DNA of 64,000 nt from an uncultured Poribacteria bacterium. Its GTDB lineage: Bacteria > Poribacteria > WGA-4E > WGA-3G. Location: the NCBI GenBank assembly GCA_951828515.1, contig OX639992.1, positions 124,001-188,000 on the forward strand, in the 5' to 3' direction. A model generated the notes under the pieces. It made no database searches and was not told where the DNA came from. It saw only the letters and a list, made by a program, of their open reading frames with translations. Both the position numbers and the translations under genes were made by a program. Shown piece after piece: positions 5,747 through 37,262 of this stretch (positions within the stretch are counted from its first letter, which is position 1; each line of letters begins with the position of its first letter).

Positions 5747-6747
5747 TAAATCTGAATACCGACAGTGTTAAGTGCCTTGAATACTAATACTGCACCCAGC
5801 AGGATGACGACGGCAGCACTCATAATCGGCAGGCGTTGGAGCCAGATACCTTCGCCTGTGAAGCGTTCAAACAATGGTTTCGCCATCACCATCAGAATAC
5901 CGATGGCGACCAGAACAGCGGCAAGCCCCAATGAGAAGGCACATAGAATAATCAGACCCCACACAAGTTTGTTAAGACTAATCGCGAACAGAAGTCCAAT
6001 GAGGGCATCAACACAAGGGACGATGCCACCAGAGATACCGAGCGATAACAACCCCCAAAAACCGGTCCGTTCCGGCGGAGCATGACTATGCACCTGTCCG
6101 CCATGACTGTGTGTCAACCCATGGTCATGGTCGTGATCGTGGTCATGGTCGTGATCGTGGTCATGATCGTGATCGTGGTCATGGTCGTGATCGTGGTCAT
6201 GGTCGTGGTCGTGTGAATGATCATGGTCATGTGAATGGTCATGGTCGTGATCGTGGCTGTGTGCATCCCCGCTATAATACTGTTTCATATTTTTCGTAAA
6301 CAGCCACGCACCAATACCCACAATCAAGATACCAGAAAACAGACTCAACCATGGAACAACATCATCCGGGGCAAAACTCCCCGCTACGAGCATGATAACT
6401 CCGAGTGCTATGACGCTGAAGGTGTGTGTAAAGGTAACGACAAGCCCAAGGAAAACAGCGTCAATTACTCTGCCTTTAGAACCGACGAGGTAAGCAGCGA
6501 CTACGGCTTTTCCGTGTCCGGGCGTCAAGGCGTGCAAACCACCAAGCACGAATGAGATAACGAGCGCAGCAATTATAAATCGGAGGGTCAGCGGTTGGGT
6601 CATAAACTCTTTTATCCGGTCGCCTGAATGTTCATGCCCTTCGTCAGCAAAAGCCGACGCACACACCATAACACCGATAACAATGATACTGATCTGCAAT
6701 ACACGCTTACAAGCTGCGCCATTAAAATAGAAATAAAGTTTCTTCAA
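5746..6747 (-). CDS. NicO/RcnA-like nickel-cobalt exporter with a long His-Asp tract
   Basis: A 333-aa inner-membrane protein. After a hydrophobic signal-like N-terminus (residues 15-34, ending ASAFADEGHEHS) comes the family motif GGLHALTPGHGKA (about residues 69-81), then further transmembrane segments. A cytoplasmic-type loop at about 162-225 is a near-perfect (His-Asp)n run with Ser-His interruptions, far longer than usual, probably binding divalent metal. Family members export Ni2+/Co2+. The start is TTG at 6747, 6 nt after the stop of the NHL gene, and AAGGG 11 nt upstream overlaps that gene's end, so the two are cotranscribed and probably coupled. Confidence 0.85.
   Translation of the reverse strand: MKKLYFYFNGAACKRVLQISIIVIGVMVCASAFADEGHEHSGDRIKEFMTQPLTLRFIIAALVISFVLGGLHALTPGHGKAVVAAYLVGSKGRVIDAVFLGLVVTFTHTFSVIALGVIMLVAGSFAPDDVVPWLSLFSGILIVGIGAWLFTKNMKQYYSGDAHSHDHDHDHSHDHDHSHDHDHDHDHDHDHDHDHDHDHDHDHDHDHDHGLTHSHGGQVHSHAPPERTGFWGLLSLGISGGIVPCVDALIGLLFAISLNKLVWGLIILCAFSLGLAAVLVAIGILMVMAKPLFERFTGEGIWLQRLPIMSAAVVILLGAVLVFKALNTVGIQI
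6117..6258. repeat. Tandem hexanucleotide tract encoding poly(His-Asp)
   Basis: A near-continuous run of six-base units of the form GTGATC/GTGGTC/ATGGTC on the plus strand, encoding alternating His and Asp on the minus strand. It lies in frame inside the exporter gene. Such tracts vary in length by slippage, and the changing third-codon bases show the copies are not all recent. Confidence 0.85.
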
Positions 6748-28639: not shown

Positions 28640-29848
28640 TTAATCGGTCAGTCCATCCTGTTCTGCGAATTCAAACAGTTCTCCGCCGTCAATAGCCTTT
28701 ATTTTTCCACCATATTCCTCAGCAAGGGAGATAAGCAGTTCTGCACCACGTGAACGTTTCAAATCAATCTCAAGTGCTACTACATAGATAACGGCATTGT
28801 TCCGGTTATGTTCACGCACAACATCAAGAATCTTCTGTGTGTTTGTTTCAATATATACACCAGACCCCTCATCTACCTGCGGTAAACCGTCCGTTATCAA
28901 AACAACAACAGTGGGTTCAAAGGTTAAGGCGGCTTTAATGGCGGAGAGAATGTTAGTGTCCACATTGCCCTGTATACTTCTCGGTGTGAACCTGTCAAGA
29001 TACTTCAAGGTGCGTTTTATGTTTGCGGGGTTCGCCGGTAGCATTTTCTCGCTCATAGGTTTCGCTGTATTGGAAAATGCTACAATGTTCAGCTTGTCAT
29101 TGTTCCCTAACATCATCACGGAATCTTTGAGAGCGTCTATTGCCAGTGGCAATTTTTTCATTCCTGCAGCCTGCATACTTGCGGTTATATCAAGACAGTA
29201 GACGACGTCTTTGGGTCCCCCGAATTCATCAAGGAAATCGATAATGCCGAGCCTGTCCGCGGCGCCATCCTTTCCGCCGCCACCGAGGAGACCGCCGTCG
29301 GAGCCAGCTTGTCCACCCCCACGGAATCTACCCATACCGTCGCCGCGTGCTCGGACCCTACCGGTAACAATACCGCGCCCATCCGTCTGTCCGGGTTGTG
29401 AGATAAGTCTGCTGAGATTTGACGCCTCTGCATCCCGGAGTTGTGCGTCCGTCATAACATCGGGAATAATCTCACTCACAGGTGCCTTGTTGATCTCTAC
29501 ATCTTCGAGAACAACGCGTGGACTGAGTTTCATGACCTCATCTATCTCATTCCGAGCGGCTTCAATCTTTTTCTCCATCGCGTCTCTGGCGAGTTTCTCA
29601 TTCGGATTAAACATCTTTTTGGTCAGCGGTGGTTTCGGTTTCGGTTTCCGTTTTCTGGGGGCATCCGCATCGTTAATCAAGTCAACAGCGAGGGCATCCG
29701 CCTGTTCCTGGGTGAGTTGATTCATTGGCAGAAACAGGTAGGTAATCGCGAAAATCATGTGTAGAATAAGCGATAATAAGATGACTGAGCGCGTTCGGTT
29801 TTTACGTCGTCGTGCATCAATGCCCCAGTTCAGCAGATGATTTAACAT
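28640..29848 (-). CDS. Membrane-anchored von Willebrand factor A domain protein
   Basis: A 402-aa protein. One N-terminal transmembrane helix (residues ~22-42, SVILLSLILHMIFAITYLFL) after an Arg-rich cytoplasmic start is followed by a Pro/Lys-rich linker (KRKPKPKPP), a Gly-rich stretch (~170-200), and a vWA domain (~215-395). The metal-site motif is DITASM (DxTxS in place of DxSxS), with ITDG as the later acidic motif. The N-terminal layout resembles TonB-like proteins. The vWA domain probably mediates protein interaction in the periplasm. A separate unit, between a repeat and the ZFD-wHTH gene. Confidence 0.85.
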   Translation of the reverse strand: MLNHLLNWGIDARRRKNRTRSVILLSLILHMIFAITYLFLPMNQLTQEQADALAVDLINDADAPRKRKPKPKPPLTKKMFNPNEKLARDAMEKKIEAARNEIDEVMKLSPRVVLEDVEINKAPVSEIIPDVMTDAQLRDAEASNLSRLISQPGQTDGRGIVTGRVRARGDGMGRFRGGGQAGSDGGLLGGGGKDGAADRLGIIDFLDEFGGPKDVVYCLDITASMQAAGMKKLPLAIDALKDSVMMLGNNDKLNIVAFSNTAKPMSEKMLPANPANIKRTLKYLDRFTPRSIQGNVDTNILSAIKAALTFEPTVVVLITDGLPQVDEGSGVYIETNTQKILDVVREHNRNNAVIYVVALEIDLKRSRGAELLISLAEEYGGKIKAIDGGELFEFAEQDGLTD

Positions 29849-29904: not shown

Positions 29905-30423
29905 CTACGTTCCTGATGCAGTTTGCTGATTTTCAAAAGATTGGATCCACGTTTTACCTTCAGGTGTCAGTTCATAATAGGTGTGATTTCGGTGTTTGAT
30001 CCATTTCCCCTTGACGATATTCTTTCGATAGTGGATGATACGTCCTTCAACCCGTTTCAAGCCACCGAGATTTCTCAATTTACGATGTCGCTGGTGCATC
30101 TCCTCAAGCGGAATTCTCAGGGTTTCAGCGACAACAATGGAGTAGTCCATCCCCAATTCTTGGTGGTGTTTCAGTATAAAGTAATCGGTCTCATCAAGTT
30201 CAGCAAACTCAGGTGGAAGGGACACTGAATCCATCGGAACCTCGGTTGCCCGTATCTCATCCCATGTTATTGCCAATAGCCGCTCCGGTCGAAAACTTCG
30301 TAGTGCTTTACATTCAGCGTGATGGACAGTTATTGTGCTGTCTTCCTTGAAATAGCCGTTAATTGCGTTACCCTCTTGTGGCGTGCAACACTTGGCGATT
30401 TTATATGTTAATTCAGTTCCCAT
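29905..30423 (-). CDS. RelA/SpoT zinc-finger (RIS) domain fused to a DUF2250-like winged helix
   Basis: A 172-aa protein with two unexpected parts. Residues ~1-55 match the zinc/RIS region of long RelA/SpoT proteins: KIAKCCTPQEGNAINGY, then ITVHHAECKAL and ERLLAITWDE, with the Cys-Cys...His...Cys ligand set intact. Residues ~70-160 (DETDYFILKHHQELGMDYSIVVAETLRIP...LRNLGGLKRVEG...HTYYELTPEGK) read as a winged helix like DUF2250. No hydrolase, synthetase, TGS or ACT domain is present. Possibly a regulator using a ribosome-associated zinc fold, or a DNA-binding protein. The start at 30423 has only a weak AGAAAG. Family assignment is from motif recall. Confidence 0.78.
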   Translation of the reverse strand: MGTELTYKIAKCCTPQEGNAINGYFKEDSTITVHHAECKALRSFRPERLLAITWDEIRATEVPMDSVSLPPEFAELDETDYFILKHHQELGMDYSIVVAETLRIPLEEMHQRHRKLRNLGGLKRVEGRIIHYRKNIVKGKWIKHRNHTYYELTPEGKTWIQSFENQQTASGT

Positions 30424-30484: not shown

Positions 30485-30585
30485 GGGGTAGTACAAGACC
30501 TACCCCTACAAGATATAGGGTGCGGGGTAGGCACAAGACCTACCCCTACAAGATATAGGCACAAGACCTACCCCTACAAGTGTCC
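30485..30585. repeat. Tandem GTAGGCACAAGACCTACCCCTAC repeats
   Basis: Three close units of the form GGGGTAGxxACAAGACCTACC, each with a CCTACCCC partner, separated by TACAAGATATAGG. Related GGGCAGGCACAAGACCTGCC units lie at 37132-37262. Unequal spacing and internal palindromes distinguish them from CRISPR. Confidence 0.65.
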
Positions 30586-30605: not shown

Positions 30606-31880
30606 TCATTTCCGTCCCAATGCCCGATGTCCGATGTCATTCCGGGCGTGTGCATTATCAAAATGAATAGCGGAAACGCCCTTATATGCGAGTTGAATCG
30701 CGTCGTGCAACTTGCCAGTCACAGCAGTGACACCTAACACTCTGCCGCCATCCGTGACGACGGTTTCACCATCCTGCTTTGTGCCTGCATGGAAGACAGT
30801 AACGCCTTCAATCGCATCGGCATCTTCAAGCCCTGTGATAACTATCCCTGTCTGGTAGGGGTCTGGATACCCACCGGACGCCATAACGACACACGCGGCT
30901 GCCTCGTCATGCCATTGTACATCAGCGTGCTGTTCAAGTGTTCCATCAATACATGCGATTAGCAACGGGACTAAATCACTTTTGAGGCGAGGAAAAAGAA
31001 CTTGTGCTTCGGGGTCTCCAAAACGACAGTTGAATTCTATCACTTTCGGACCGTCATCCGTAATCATCAATCCGACGTATAGCACACCTTTAAAGGGTCT
31101 TCCGATATCTGCCATGCCGTTGACGGTAGGGTAGACAATGCGTTGCATTACATCGTCGTGCAATTCTGGTGTAATTACTGGGGCGGGAGAGTATGCCCCC
31201 ATGCCGCCAGTATTCTTGCCAGTATCACCATCTTGGGACATCTTGTGGTCCTGGGAACTGACGAAAGGGAGACAGTAAGTGCCGTCGGTAAGCACGGTAA
31301 AGGAGGCTTCCTCACCGATGAGTTCCTCTTCAATCACGACGCTATCACCAGCGTCGCCAAATGCCTTGTCTATTAAAATAGTTGTGACGGCTTGCACCGC
31401 CTCTTTGAAGGTGCGTCCGGGGATAACGCCTTTGCCTGCCGCGAGTCCGTTTGCCTTAACGAAAACGGGTGCATTTTGATCTTCGACATACGCCATGGCT
31501 TCCTCGGCATCCGTAAACGTCTGGTGTTCCGCTGTCGGTATATCGTTTTCAAGCATCAGTCGTTTAGCGAAATCTTTACTTGCTTCCAAGCGTGCTGCGC
31601 GTTTATCGGGTCCAAATGCCTTCAGACCGCGTTCACTGAACACATCAACAATTCCTTCAGCCAAAGGCACTTCGGGTCCGACAACAGTTAAGCCAATGTC
31701 TTGGGCTGCTGCCCAATCCGCCAAGTCGGTAAACCGATCTGGCATCGGCATAGATTCTGCGAGTTGCGAGATACCGGGATTACCGGGTGTGCAATAGATT
31801 TTTTCGACGAGTGGGCTCTGTGCGAGTTTCCAGACGAGTGCGTGTTCGCGCCCGCCTTGCCCCACAACCAGAATTTTCAT
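30606..31880 (-). CDS. purD: Phosphoribosylamine--glycine ligase (GAR synthetase)
   Basis: A 424-aa ATP-grasp enzyme for step two of purine synthesis (PRA + glycine + ATP to GAR). The N-terminal VVGQGGREHALVWKL, GLTVVGPEVPLAEGIVD, KANGLAAGKGVI, and FNCRFGDPEAQVLFPRL are all diagnostic PurD blocks. The length is normal. The frame runs 17 codons further, but AAGGA 8 nt upstream supports the ATG at 31880. No other purine gene is beside it. Its 5' side faces a divergent promoter at 31964. Confidence 0.96.
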   Translation of the reverse strand: MKILVVGQGGREHALVWKLAQSPLVEKIYCTPGNPGISQLAESMPMPDRFTDLADWAAAQDIGLTVVGPEVPLAEGIVDVFSERGLKAFGPDKRAARLEASKDFAKRLMLENDIPTAEHQTFTDAEEAMAYVEDQNAPVFVKANGLAAGKGVIPGRTFKEAVQAVTTILIDKAFGDAGDSVVIEEELIGEEASFTVLTDGTYCLPFVSSQDHKMSQDGDTGKNTGGMGAYSPAPVITPELHDDVMQRIVYPTVNGMADIGRPFKGVLYVGLMITDDGPKVIEFNCRFGDPEAQVLFPRLKSDLVPLLIACIDGTLEQHADVQWHDEAAACVVMASGGYPDPYQTGIVITGLEDADAIEGVTVFHAGTKQDGETVVTDGGRVLGVTAVTGKLHDAIQLAYKGVSAIHFDNAHARNDIGHRALGRK

Positions 31881-31963
31881 GTTATGTATCCTTTTTGATT
31901 GTATTGTACCAGAATGTGTTCGGAAAATCAAGACATTTTAGTCTGAAAGCCAATGGTTCTAAT

Positions 31964-32233: not shown

Positions 32234-33343
32234 ATGAAAACAGAAAAATACGAGTTCTACCATCAATCTAACTTGATACAGATCGGCAATTTGATTGACG
32301 ATCTGCATGGTGTGCATGTTCACCTTTTGATGTTGCAGAGACGCTATTATCGTATCTATGGTAAATATGCGTCCTTTGCCCGCATCTGCAATCATATCAC
32401 GAAGTTGAAACAGCGGACGAAACCGCATTGGAATCAACTGCCGAGTCAGGTCATCCAACAAGTCGCAAAGCGTATTCACTTGGGATACGAAAAGTTCTTT
32501 GACAACATTAGAGACCGAAAAGCAGGTAAAACGAAACGTAAAGTGGGTAGACCGAAAATCAAGCCAAATCATAAATATAACTCACTGACGTTCACACAAG
32601 CAGGTTTCAAATTAGAAGGCAATCGGTTGACAATTAACTGTATTAAAAAGTCGTTCACGTTTTGGGAGCACCGAGACTGGACAGGCACGATAAAGACGAT
32701 AACAATCAAACGTGATAATGTAGGTGACTACTATCTATACCTGAGTTGTGAGGATTACGAACCTTCCGAGGAACTCCCTTTGACCGGTAATGTGGCAGGG
32801 GCGGACTTCGGAATGAAAACATTTCTCACACTTTCAGACGGGACGAAAATAGATTCGCCAGAATTCTATAAACAAGGTCTCAACGCAATCCGTTCAGCAA
32901 ACAAGGCACTCTCCCGCAAGCAAAAGGGTTCAAATGCATGGTATCGTGCAAAGTGGCATCTCGCCTGTGTTCATAAGCAAATCACCCATAGGAGACGCGA
33001 TTGGTTCTTCAAATTGGCACTTCGGCTTGTACGTAAATATGATACACTTGCGATAGAGACCTTGAACCTTGAAGGGATGAAACGCCTCTGGGGACGCAAA
33101 ATCTCTGATATTGCCTTCGGTGAGTTTGCTTTGATCCTCCAATGGACTTTTTCGAAACATGGTAAAACACTCTTGAAAGCGGGACGTTGGGCAGCGACGA
33201 CAAAACCGTGTTCGGCTTGTGGACATCCCAATGAAAATCTAACACTCCAAGATAGGCAGTGGATATGCCCTGACTGTGGTTCACACCACGATAGGGACCT
33301 CAACGCTGCTATCAACATTTTGCAGGCTGGGGTACCCGCGTAA
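32234..33343 (+). CDS. tnpB: TnpB RNA-guided nuclease
   Basis: A 369-aa IS605-type TnpB, the transposon-encoded ancestor of Cas12, which cuts DNA at a TAM guided by a right-end RNA. All catalytic features look intact: RuvC-I Asp in GADFGMKTFL (~193), Glu in AIETLNLEGM (~274), a zinc ribbon with two CxxC pairs (PCSACG ~325 and CPDCG ~345) and the final Asp in DRDLNAA (~354). The N-terminus is the helical wedge region. No IS200 TnpA is nearby. Base composition and the own promoter fit a recently active element. Confidence 0.95.
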   Translation: MKTEKYEFYHQSNLIQIGNLIDDLHGVHVHLLMLQRRYYRIYGKYASFARICNHITKLKQRTKPHWNQLPSQVIQQVAKRIHLGYEKFFDNIRDRKAGKTKRKVGRPKIKPNHKYNSLTFTQAGFKLEGNRLTINCIKKSFTFWEHRDWTGTIKTITIKRDNVGDYYLYLSCEDYEPSEELPLTGNVAGADFGMKTFLTLSDGTKIDSPEFYKQGLNAIRSANKALSRKQKGSNAWYRAKWHLACVHKQITHRRRDWFFKLALRLVRKYDTLAIETLNLEGMKRLWGRKISDIAFGEFALILQWTFSKHGKTLLKAGRWAATTKPCSACGHPNENLTLQDRQWICPDCGSHHDRDLNAAINILQAGVPA

Positions 33344-33540: not shown

Positions 33541-33879
33541 CTGCGCAATACACAACCTCGAGACATAGAAGTTTACGAGACCTTAAATGGTCAAGTACCG
33601 TTCACTGAATGGTTTGCATCCATTCAAGATATAAAAACACAAACCAGAATTCGAGGACGACTTGACCGACTGGAAACAGGGAACTTTAGCGATTGCGAAT
33701 CTGTTGGTAGCGGTGTCTTTGAGCTGCGTCTCCATTTTGGGCCAGGCTATCGTATTTACTTTGGTGAGGTGGGTAGAACAATCGTCCTTTTGCTCTGTGG
33801 CGGGGATAAGTCAACGCAGGCACGGGACATCCAACGCGCAAAAACCTATTGGTTAGAACATAAGGAGAAACAGCGATGA
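33541..33879 (+). CDS. HigB/RelE-like addiction-module toxin (TIGR02683 type), CTG or lost start
   Basis: The reading frame is open from 33514 to TGA at 33877-33879. It encodes RDIEVYETLNGQVPFTEWF, IRGRLDRLETGNFSDCESVG, GVFELRLHFGPGYRIYFG and VLLLCGGDKSTQARDIQRAK, the clear TIGR02683/Gp49-like toxin pattern (ribosome-dependent mRNA interferase class by family). Homologues begin a few residues before RDIEVYE, where this frame has only CTG at 33541 and no ATG, GTG or TTG. The start codon may be CTG or may have been lost. The TGA overlaps the antitoxin ATG (ATGA). The IS right end lies 41 bp upstream. Confidence 0.8.
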   Translation: MRNTQPRDIEVYETLNGQVPFTEWFASIQDIKTQTRIRGRLDRLETGNFSDCESVGSGVFELRLHFGPGYRIYFGEVGRTIVLLLCGGDKSTQARDIQRAKTYWLEHKEKQR

Positions 33880-34280
33880 GAAAATACCGAAAATGGCGAG
33901 AGATCGTAATAGAGCAACTTGCAGCCGACTGGGATGCGGCATTTGACTATATTCAATTCGCAATGGAAGAATACCAAGTTGATGGGGATACTGCAGTGTT
34001 TCTGATCGCCCTCCGAACGTTTGTGGAATCTCAAGGGGGTATTACTGAGCTTAGCAAAAAAACCGGCGTGAATAGGGAAGTTTTCTCGAAAGTGCTTTCA
34101 TCTGTGGACCCTCCGCGACTTGACATGTTCGTAACTATTCTGTCTGCCCTTGGGGGCAAACTTTCAATTAAACCGCTGGGATCCGAGGGTTTTCGTAGAG
34201 AAAAGGAAGATGTGGATGCTGTGTTAGCAACGTCAGAGAGCATAAAACCCGATATGGTATTCGATAGAGATAACAAATAA
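33876..34280 (+). CDS. HigA-like antitoxin with HTH domain (TIGR02684 type)
   Basis: A 134-aa protein. It has a helical N-terminus and then an Xre-type helix-turn-helix: FLIALRTFVESQGGITELSKKTGVNREVFSKVLSS, followed by PRLDMFVTILSALGGKLSIKP, matching the TIGR02684 antidote family except for a ~35-residue acidic C-terminal extension. It overlaps the toxin gene by 4 nt, the toxin-first order typical of higBA. AAGGAG precedes the ATG. It probably neutralises the toxin and represses the promoter, whose likely site lies on the far side of the IS insertion. Confidence 0.88.
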   Translation: MRKYRKWREIVIEQLAADWDAAFDYIQFAMEEYQVDGDTAVFLIALRTFVESQGGITELSKKTGVNREVFSKVLSSVDPPRLDMFVTILSALGGKLSIKPLGSEGFRREKEDVDAVLATSESIKPDMVFDRDNK

Positions 34281-37131: not shown

Positions 37132-37262
37132 CATGGGCAGGCACAAGACCTGCCCCTACAAAATTCATTTTTATTTTTAGATACATGGGCAGGCACAAGA
37201 CCTGCCCCTACTTTTACTGATACATGGGCAGGTACAAGACCTGCCCCTACAAAATTCATTTT
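37132..37262. repeat. Three GGGCAGGCACAAGACCTGCCC units
   Basis: Units of GGGCAGG(C/T)ACAAGACCTGCC at about 37135, 37187 and 37227, spaced by ACAAAATTCATTTTTATTTTT. They are followed by a related GGGCGGACACAACGGTCCGCCC palindrome (~37271). Widespread type of short palindromic repeat. Confidence 0.65.

Follow-up and report, generated by a model that had tools for sequence, protein, structure and literature searches.

A RIS zinc domain joined to a DUF2250 winged helix: an apparently undescribed two-domain protein family in Poribacteria and a second phylum

What could the zinc domain of the long RelA/SpoT enzymes do in a protein that has none of the (p)ppGpp enzyme domains? The question is raised by a gene at 29905..30423 of a 64,000-nucleotide stretch of DNA (the window; contig OX639992.1, positions 124,001 to 188,000) from an uncultured Poribacteria bacterium. 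A preliminary description, made from the sequence alone, had placed a RIS zinc domain fused to a winged helix in this interval, and the interval is right. The gene lies on the minus strand, as do all its parts and both neighbouring genes given below; the plus-strand frame is interrupted by stops. The open reading frame starts with ATG, runs without internal stops in the window and encodes 172 amino acids. Pairwise dN/dS against five relatives is 0.09-0.19 (0.01-0.07 for the winged-helix part), which indicates purifying selection and hence a real gene. As had been claimed, the protein is free of ppGpp enzyme domains: a Pfam scan of the 172 residues found no hydrolase, synthetase, TGS, AH or ACT domain, which sets it apart from the long RelA-SpoT homologues. 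The same genome encodes a separate full-length Rel of 736 amino acids with HD, synthetase, TGS and ACT.

The RIS zinc domain covers residues 4-57 (30253..30414). The NCBIfam model TIGR00691 matches residues 6-57 at model positions 554-606 (E 6.6e-9); the score is far under the whole-protein cut-off, as expected for a match to a single domain. RelA chains from ribosome complexes in the PDB match the same part with E 1.2e-5 when a single sequence is used, and with E down to 5.4e-9 with a profile of 21 sequences. The Pfam RIS model PF19296 gave no match to the fusion protein. This model also misses the RIS of the genome's genuine Rel, where its match (residues 475-567) ends before the Cys-Cys motif. 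Residues 1-62 were modelled alone and template-free (mean pLDDT 85.5). In Foldseek, the best nine matches of this model were all Rel, RelA or SpoT (probability 1.00, TMq 0.67-0.69), and the tenth had a probability of 0.11. With VIA-align 2, the zinc half aligned with SpoT at Z 7.7 (53 residues, 1.8 Angstrom) and with RelA at Z 6.8 (58 residues, 2.8 Angstrom), and the sole row beyond Rel/RelA/SpoT scored Z 2.2. The structure prediction of the zinc site proposed in the preliminary description thus finds only Rel, RelA and SpoT among its confident matches.

The zinc ligands are C12 and C13 (30385..30390; C612 and C613 in E. coli RelA), H34 (30322..30324; RelA H634) and C38 (30310..30312; RelA C638). 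We compared 88 fusions, 56 from the Poribacteria side (window included) and 32 from a second phylum; a sequence cut by a contig end (L102) and two with masked stretches (L201 and L213) were left out of these counts. C12, C13 and H34 are present in 88/88 and C38 in 87/88. The only fusion with C38 replaced, by Arg, lies at 6042-6536 of locus L195, and the remainder of that protein is intact. The CC...H...C ligand set, which had been read correctly from the window, has the same spacing as in the RIS domain (also ZFD or CC domain) of long RelA-SpoT homologues, and the fold and the core residues P15, G23, R48, L49 and W54 are likewise shared with the RIS of RelA, SpoT and Rel.

A variable linker of residues 58-75 (30199..30252; 3/18 consensus identities between the phyla; pLDDT ~60 at residues 61-70) leads to the DUF2250 winged helix of residues 76-165 (29929..30198). 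Residues 77-160 match almost the entire Pfam model DUF2250 (PF10007) at E 3.5e-14, scoring 53.1 bits where the cut-off is 24.4. The proposed profile comparison returned both halves, and the objection that no RIS match exists falls away. The full-length protein, modelled without templates from 47 sequences (mean pLDDT 81.7), has a small beta/alpha unit followed by a linker of low confidence and then a winged helix whose long wing is poorly defined; a C-terminal helix is present at residues 154-169. Among the 50 Foldseek matches listed for this model, most are MarR-family regulators together with the DNA-binding AspA of pNOB8. The MarR matches reach Z of about 12-13 across 77-87 residues (up to 12.9, with rmsd 2.0 over 77 residues), and AspA reaches Z 11.6 (rmsd 1.6, 79 residues). 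These proteins share the winged-helix fold with the fusion; they differ from it in sequence (about 10-20% identity), in its long invariant wing and in its N-terminal zinc module. Structural matches of the winged helix also include haloarchaeal RosR and the N-terminal domain of RIO2, a ribosome-biogenesis kinase. As the winged helix has a MarR-type DNA-binding fold, it likely binds nucleic acid, DNA or RNA.

The wing, residues 130-150 (29974..30036), is the part that has changed least. Among the 88 fusions, 23 columns are fully invariant, including C12, C13, H34, R48, L49, W54, H87, D93, Y94, R124, Y132 and K143-Y149. The longest invariant run, KHRNHTY, has seven residues and lies in the wing; a run of this length was equalled in 1/20000 column shuffles. 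Between the consensus sequences of the two phyla, identities number 17/21 in the wing tip and 7/14 in the recognition helix, 22/54 in RIS and 1/13 in the C-terminal helix. The most conserved stretch is thus the wing (KWIKHRNHTYY) and not the recognition helix, which makes the wing, as judged from conservation, the likely surface by which the winged helix touches nucleic acid. In the model, confidence is low at the tip (residues 131-140, pLDDT ~53).

Such a fusion could have arisen by an assembly join, or the resemblance to either domain could be due to chance. The survey of relatives speaks against both. The fusion is present in 45/60 relatives at E 1e-36 or better (one of the 45 is cut by a contig end): 35/36 of the same genus, 9/9 of family f4, 0/5 of families f2 and f3 and 1/10 of the rest of the class. 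Some match is seen in 57/60 relatives, many of them being the RIS of Rel itself, hence the strict threshold. A DUF2250 search of the phylum matched in 65/84 genomes, and both motifs stood in one frame at all 30 loci checked (30/30). A scan of genome contigs with two short peptide patterns, which recovered just one of the many second-phylum members, gave 57 loci, 56 in Poribacteria and one recorded as Ignavibacterium sp. (L101, 46% identity). In the phylum of L101, presumably Zixibacteria (our guess), 75/132 genomes carry the fusion at E 1e-12 or better; searches at class and at phylum level both give 132 genomes. DUF2250 matches occur in 75/132 of these genomes, nearly all at fusion sites. With the fusion seen in over 100 genomes from the two phyla, in one frame wherever checked and free of internal stops in the window, and with nothing found in favour of either alternative, we rejected an assembly accident or chance resemblance, the probability of which we regard as negligible.

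In a FastTree phylogeny of 82 short RIS sequences (near-identical rows removed), the fusions form a single clade apart from Rel (support 0.81). In the full-length tree, also from FastTree, the Poribacteria clade joins two second-phylum sequences with support 1.0 on a long branch. The fusions are shown to be one common family across the two phyla. A phage or plasmid origin was rejected. The scan of viral contigs gave 27 pattern matches and no relative. Of the 39 plasmid matches of the L101 homologue, the 20 listed reach no more than 59% coverage of the query, every annotated one being a RelA/SpoT protein. Six Poribacteria genomes have second, weak DUF2250 matches (22.6-26.4 bits), which were left out of the fusion counts. 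Three of these loci were fetched (L240-L242); they encode proteins of about 230 amino acids without RIS, which from their sequence we take to be DtxR/MntR-like regulators. No RIS-DUF2250 two-domain family was found described in the literature searched, where DUF2250 itself is named in passing in a plasmid table. The joining of RIS to DUF2250 is a new arrangement of known domains; the family itself is real, has a broad range and is apparently undescribed.

Is the RIS half likely to hold the ribosome as it does in Rel? In E. coli RelA, the A-site finger is the docking site of the RIS helix (residues 638-647), and the RIS sheet packs against S19 (PMC4974054). Arg629 is 3.5-5 Angstrom away from phosphates of the finger (PMC7058999), and a shortened A-site finger weakens RelA binding and activation (PMC5829649). 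In B. subtilis, the equivalent substitution R619E is reported to compromise activation by ribosomal complexes (PMC7058999). Window numbering equals E. coli RelA numbering minus 600 exactly at C12, C13, H34 and C38. Since this offset holds at all four ligands, residue 29 (30337..30339) corresponds to Arg629. The window has Ser there, and the position is basic in 2/88 fusions (both Lys, none Arg), whereas 19/20 Rel proteins have a basic residue here (17 Arg, 2 Lys, 1 Gly; 19 of these Rel proteins are from the window's phylum and one is from the second). A TRGRG-type loop is found in 20/20 Rel and 0/88 fusions, and the mean net charge of the fusion RIS loop is negative in both phyla. Hence, docking on the ribosome the Rel way is unlikely for the fusion, which keeps the zinc scaffold while the known ribosome-gripping loop is gone; the attached winged helix is a further difference from the RIS of RelA, SpoT and Rel. 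The preliminary description had suggested that the protein couples ribosome or tRNA state to transcription. The nucleic-acid-binding part of this proposal is likely, given the MarR-type fold; the ribosome part has lost ground, the Arg629 counterpart being absent.

The fusion might nevertheless act in translation: RIS would attach to the ribosome through an altered surface, and rRNA or tRNA would be bound by the invariant wing. We consider this main rival possible, though it is not the reading that we prefer. The only confident structural matches of the zinc domain are ribosome-associated enzymes or SpoT relatives, and the CC motif, which is said to dock the RIS helix (PMC7058999), is kept in the fusions. 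The invariance of the wing across phyla would fit an unchanging RNA target. However, the A-site-finger arginine of Rel has become a non-basic residue in 86/88 fusions, the ACT domain that is the other anchor of RelA is missing, and the gene is absent from 15/60 relatives and 57/132 second-phylum genomes.

DUF2250 proteins of haloarchaeal plasmids bear on the same rival. Four of them (L234 1192-2064, L235 1204-2067, L236 1156-2013 and L237 301-1188) carry tandem HTYY wing motifs that resemble the KHRNHTYY of the fusion: QHHTYY in the first DUF2250 copy in 4/4 and H[RK]KHTYY in the second copy in 3/4. Domain scans of two of the proteins found two DUF2250 stretches in each, and in a profile comparison the fusion DUF2250 aligns with the second haloarchaeal copy at 93% probability. 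At L238 (about 1416-1901), the archaeal DUF2250 gene on a Haloarcula rara plasmid appears frameshifted. PF10007 is described as archaeal, and the fusion matches it over its full length and above the cut-off; it differs from the haloarchaeal proteins in being bacterial and in having one copy, behind RIS. The N-terminal part of 3/4 haloarchaeal proteins weakly matches NFACT_N (best E 1.1e-5, shown scores under the cut-off of 31), NFACT (RqcH/NEMF) being a ribosome quality-control family. The NFACT protein of the genome, compared in a one-sequence search, matched only faintly and locally (best domain E 0.0095). The NFACT link of DUF2250 is a hint, and through it a link of DUF2250 to ribosome quality control is possible. 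The likeness is counted for the rival, with the limit that it comes from four archaeal sequences, whose profile matched no solved structure. In a wider version, which strikes us as unlikely, DUF2250 would be an RNA-binding winged helix tied to translation in both bacteria and archaea; it would recognise conserved rRNA or tRNA through its HTYY wing and would have been joined independently to pieces of ribosome factors, RIS in bacteria and an NFACT-like segment in haloarchaea.

Alternatively, a free RIS module might inhibit the cell's own Rel in trans by hetero-oligomerisation; in favour, a full-length Rel is encoded in the genome. C-terminal fragments of E. coli RelA with RIS and ACT are reported to inhibit RelA in trans in a Cys638-dependent manner (PMC7669825; PMC6719525), which lends the idea some support. 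However, those inhibitory fragments include the ACT domain that the fusion lacks, and the CTD at low expression is reported to have left endogenous RelA unaffected (PMC6719525). A role as natural Rel antagonist would also leave the most conserved part of the protein, the wing, unexplained, and we hold it to be improbable.

In Poribacteria, the gene sits between purD (phosphoribosylamine-glycine ligase; 30606..31931 in the window, Pfam GARS A, N and C, separate from the fusion), which is upstream and on the same strand in most loci, and a gene for a von Willebrand A-domain protein downstream (28640..29848, Pfam VWA_3), the conserved next gene. The end of purD is at most 700 bp upstream in 45/57 loci; the gap has a median of 43 bp and is at most 60 bp in 23 of them, and in the window it is 182 bp. 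Some members of the group could plausibly be transcribed together with purD, which has little bearing on function. The neighbour survey that had been suggested shows purD and the VWA gene to be recurrent in Poribacteria and not among the recurrent neighbours in the second phylum. Hence, no function was inferred from the neighbours, and no functionally telling neighbour common to both phyla was found.

Other elements lie near the gene. GTAGGGGTAGGTCTTGT occurs six times in the window, at 30493-30577 and 37143-37250 (0 expected from shuffles); the three copies upstream of the fusion gene are exact, and the three near 37.2 kb have one mismatch each. The sequence appears to be a dispersed intergenic repeat and, by eye, is absent upstream of the fusion gene in most relatives (57 loci and the window). 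An IS605 OrfB/TnpB-type gene with a Cas12f1-like zinc-binding domain is at 32234-33343, and at 33876-34280 a small protein matches dnstrm_HI1420, a probable addiction-module antidote.

Our preferred reading, at a probability of roughly 0.45, is a winged-helix regulator that depends on zinc and whose RIS module has been repurposed. The zinc-held RIS module would derive from the RIS of the long RelA/SpoT enzymes or share a common ancestor with it, and a short variable linker would fix it to the MarR-type DUF2250 winged helix. The latter would bind nucleic acid, most likely DNA, mainly via its invariant basic wing. The zinc module may be a structural, dimerising or sensing unit, responding to zinc or to redox via the Cys-Cys pair, and would not grip the ribosome the Rel way. 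The DUF2250 and MarR-like matches argue for a regulator, as do zinc ligands kept in 87-88 of the 88 fusions in a RIS without the Rel arginine or TRGRG loop and with negative loop charge, and also the conservation of the wing over the recognition helix (17/21 vs 7/14 identities) with the low dN/dS of the winged helix (0.01-0.07). Several points stand against it. Conservation of the wing beyond the recognition helix is unusual in a sequence-specific DNA binder, the wing tip is modelled at low confidence, and RIO2 is among the structural matches. Gaps to purD of at most 60 bp in 23/45 Poribacteria loci leave little space for an operator of its own, and neighbours common to both phyla offer no clue. 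Our confidence in this reading is low, since the analysis found no target for the protein, nor an operator or a ligand.

The family shows that the RIS module is not confined to (p)ppGpp enzymes: here it makes up half of a widespread two-domain protein. DUF2250, a family of unknown function, is now assigned a fold and a probable contact surface. The fusions also offer a natural experiment on the RIS residues, separating those needed for the zinc fold, where the ligands are kept, from those needed for the ribosome, where the A-site-finger arginine is lost.
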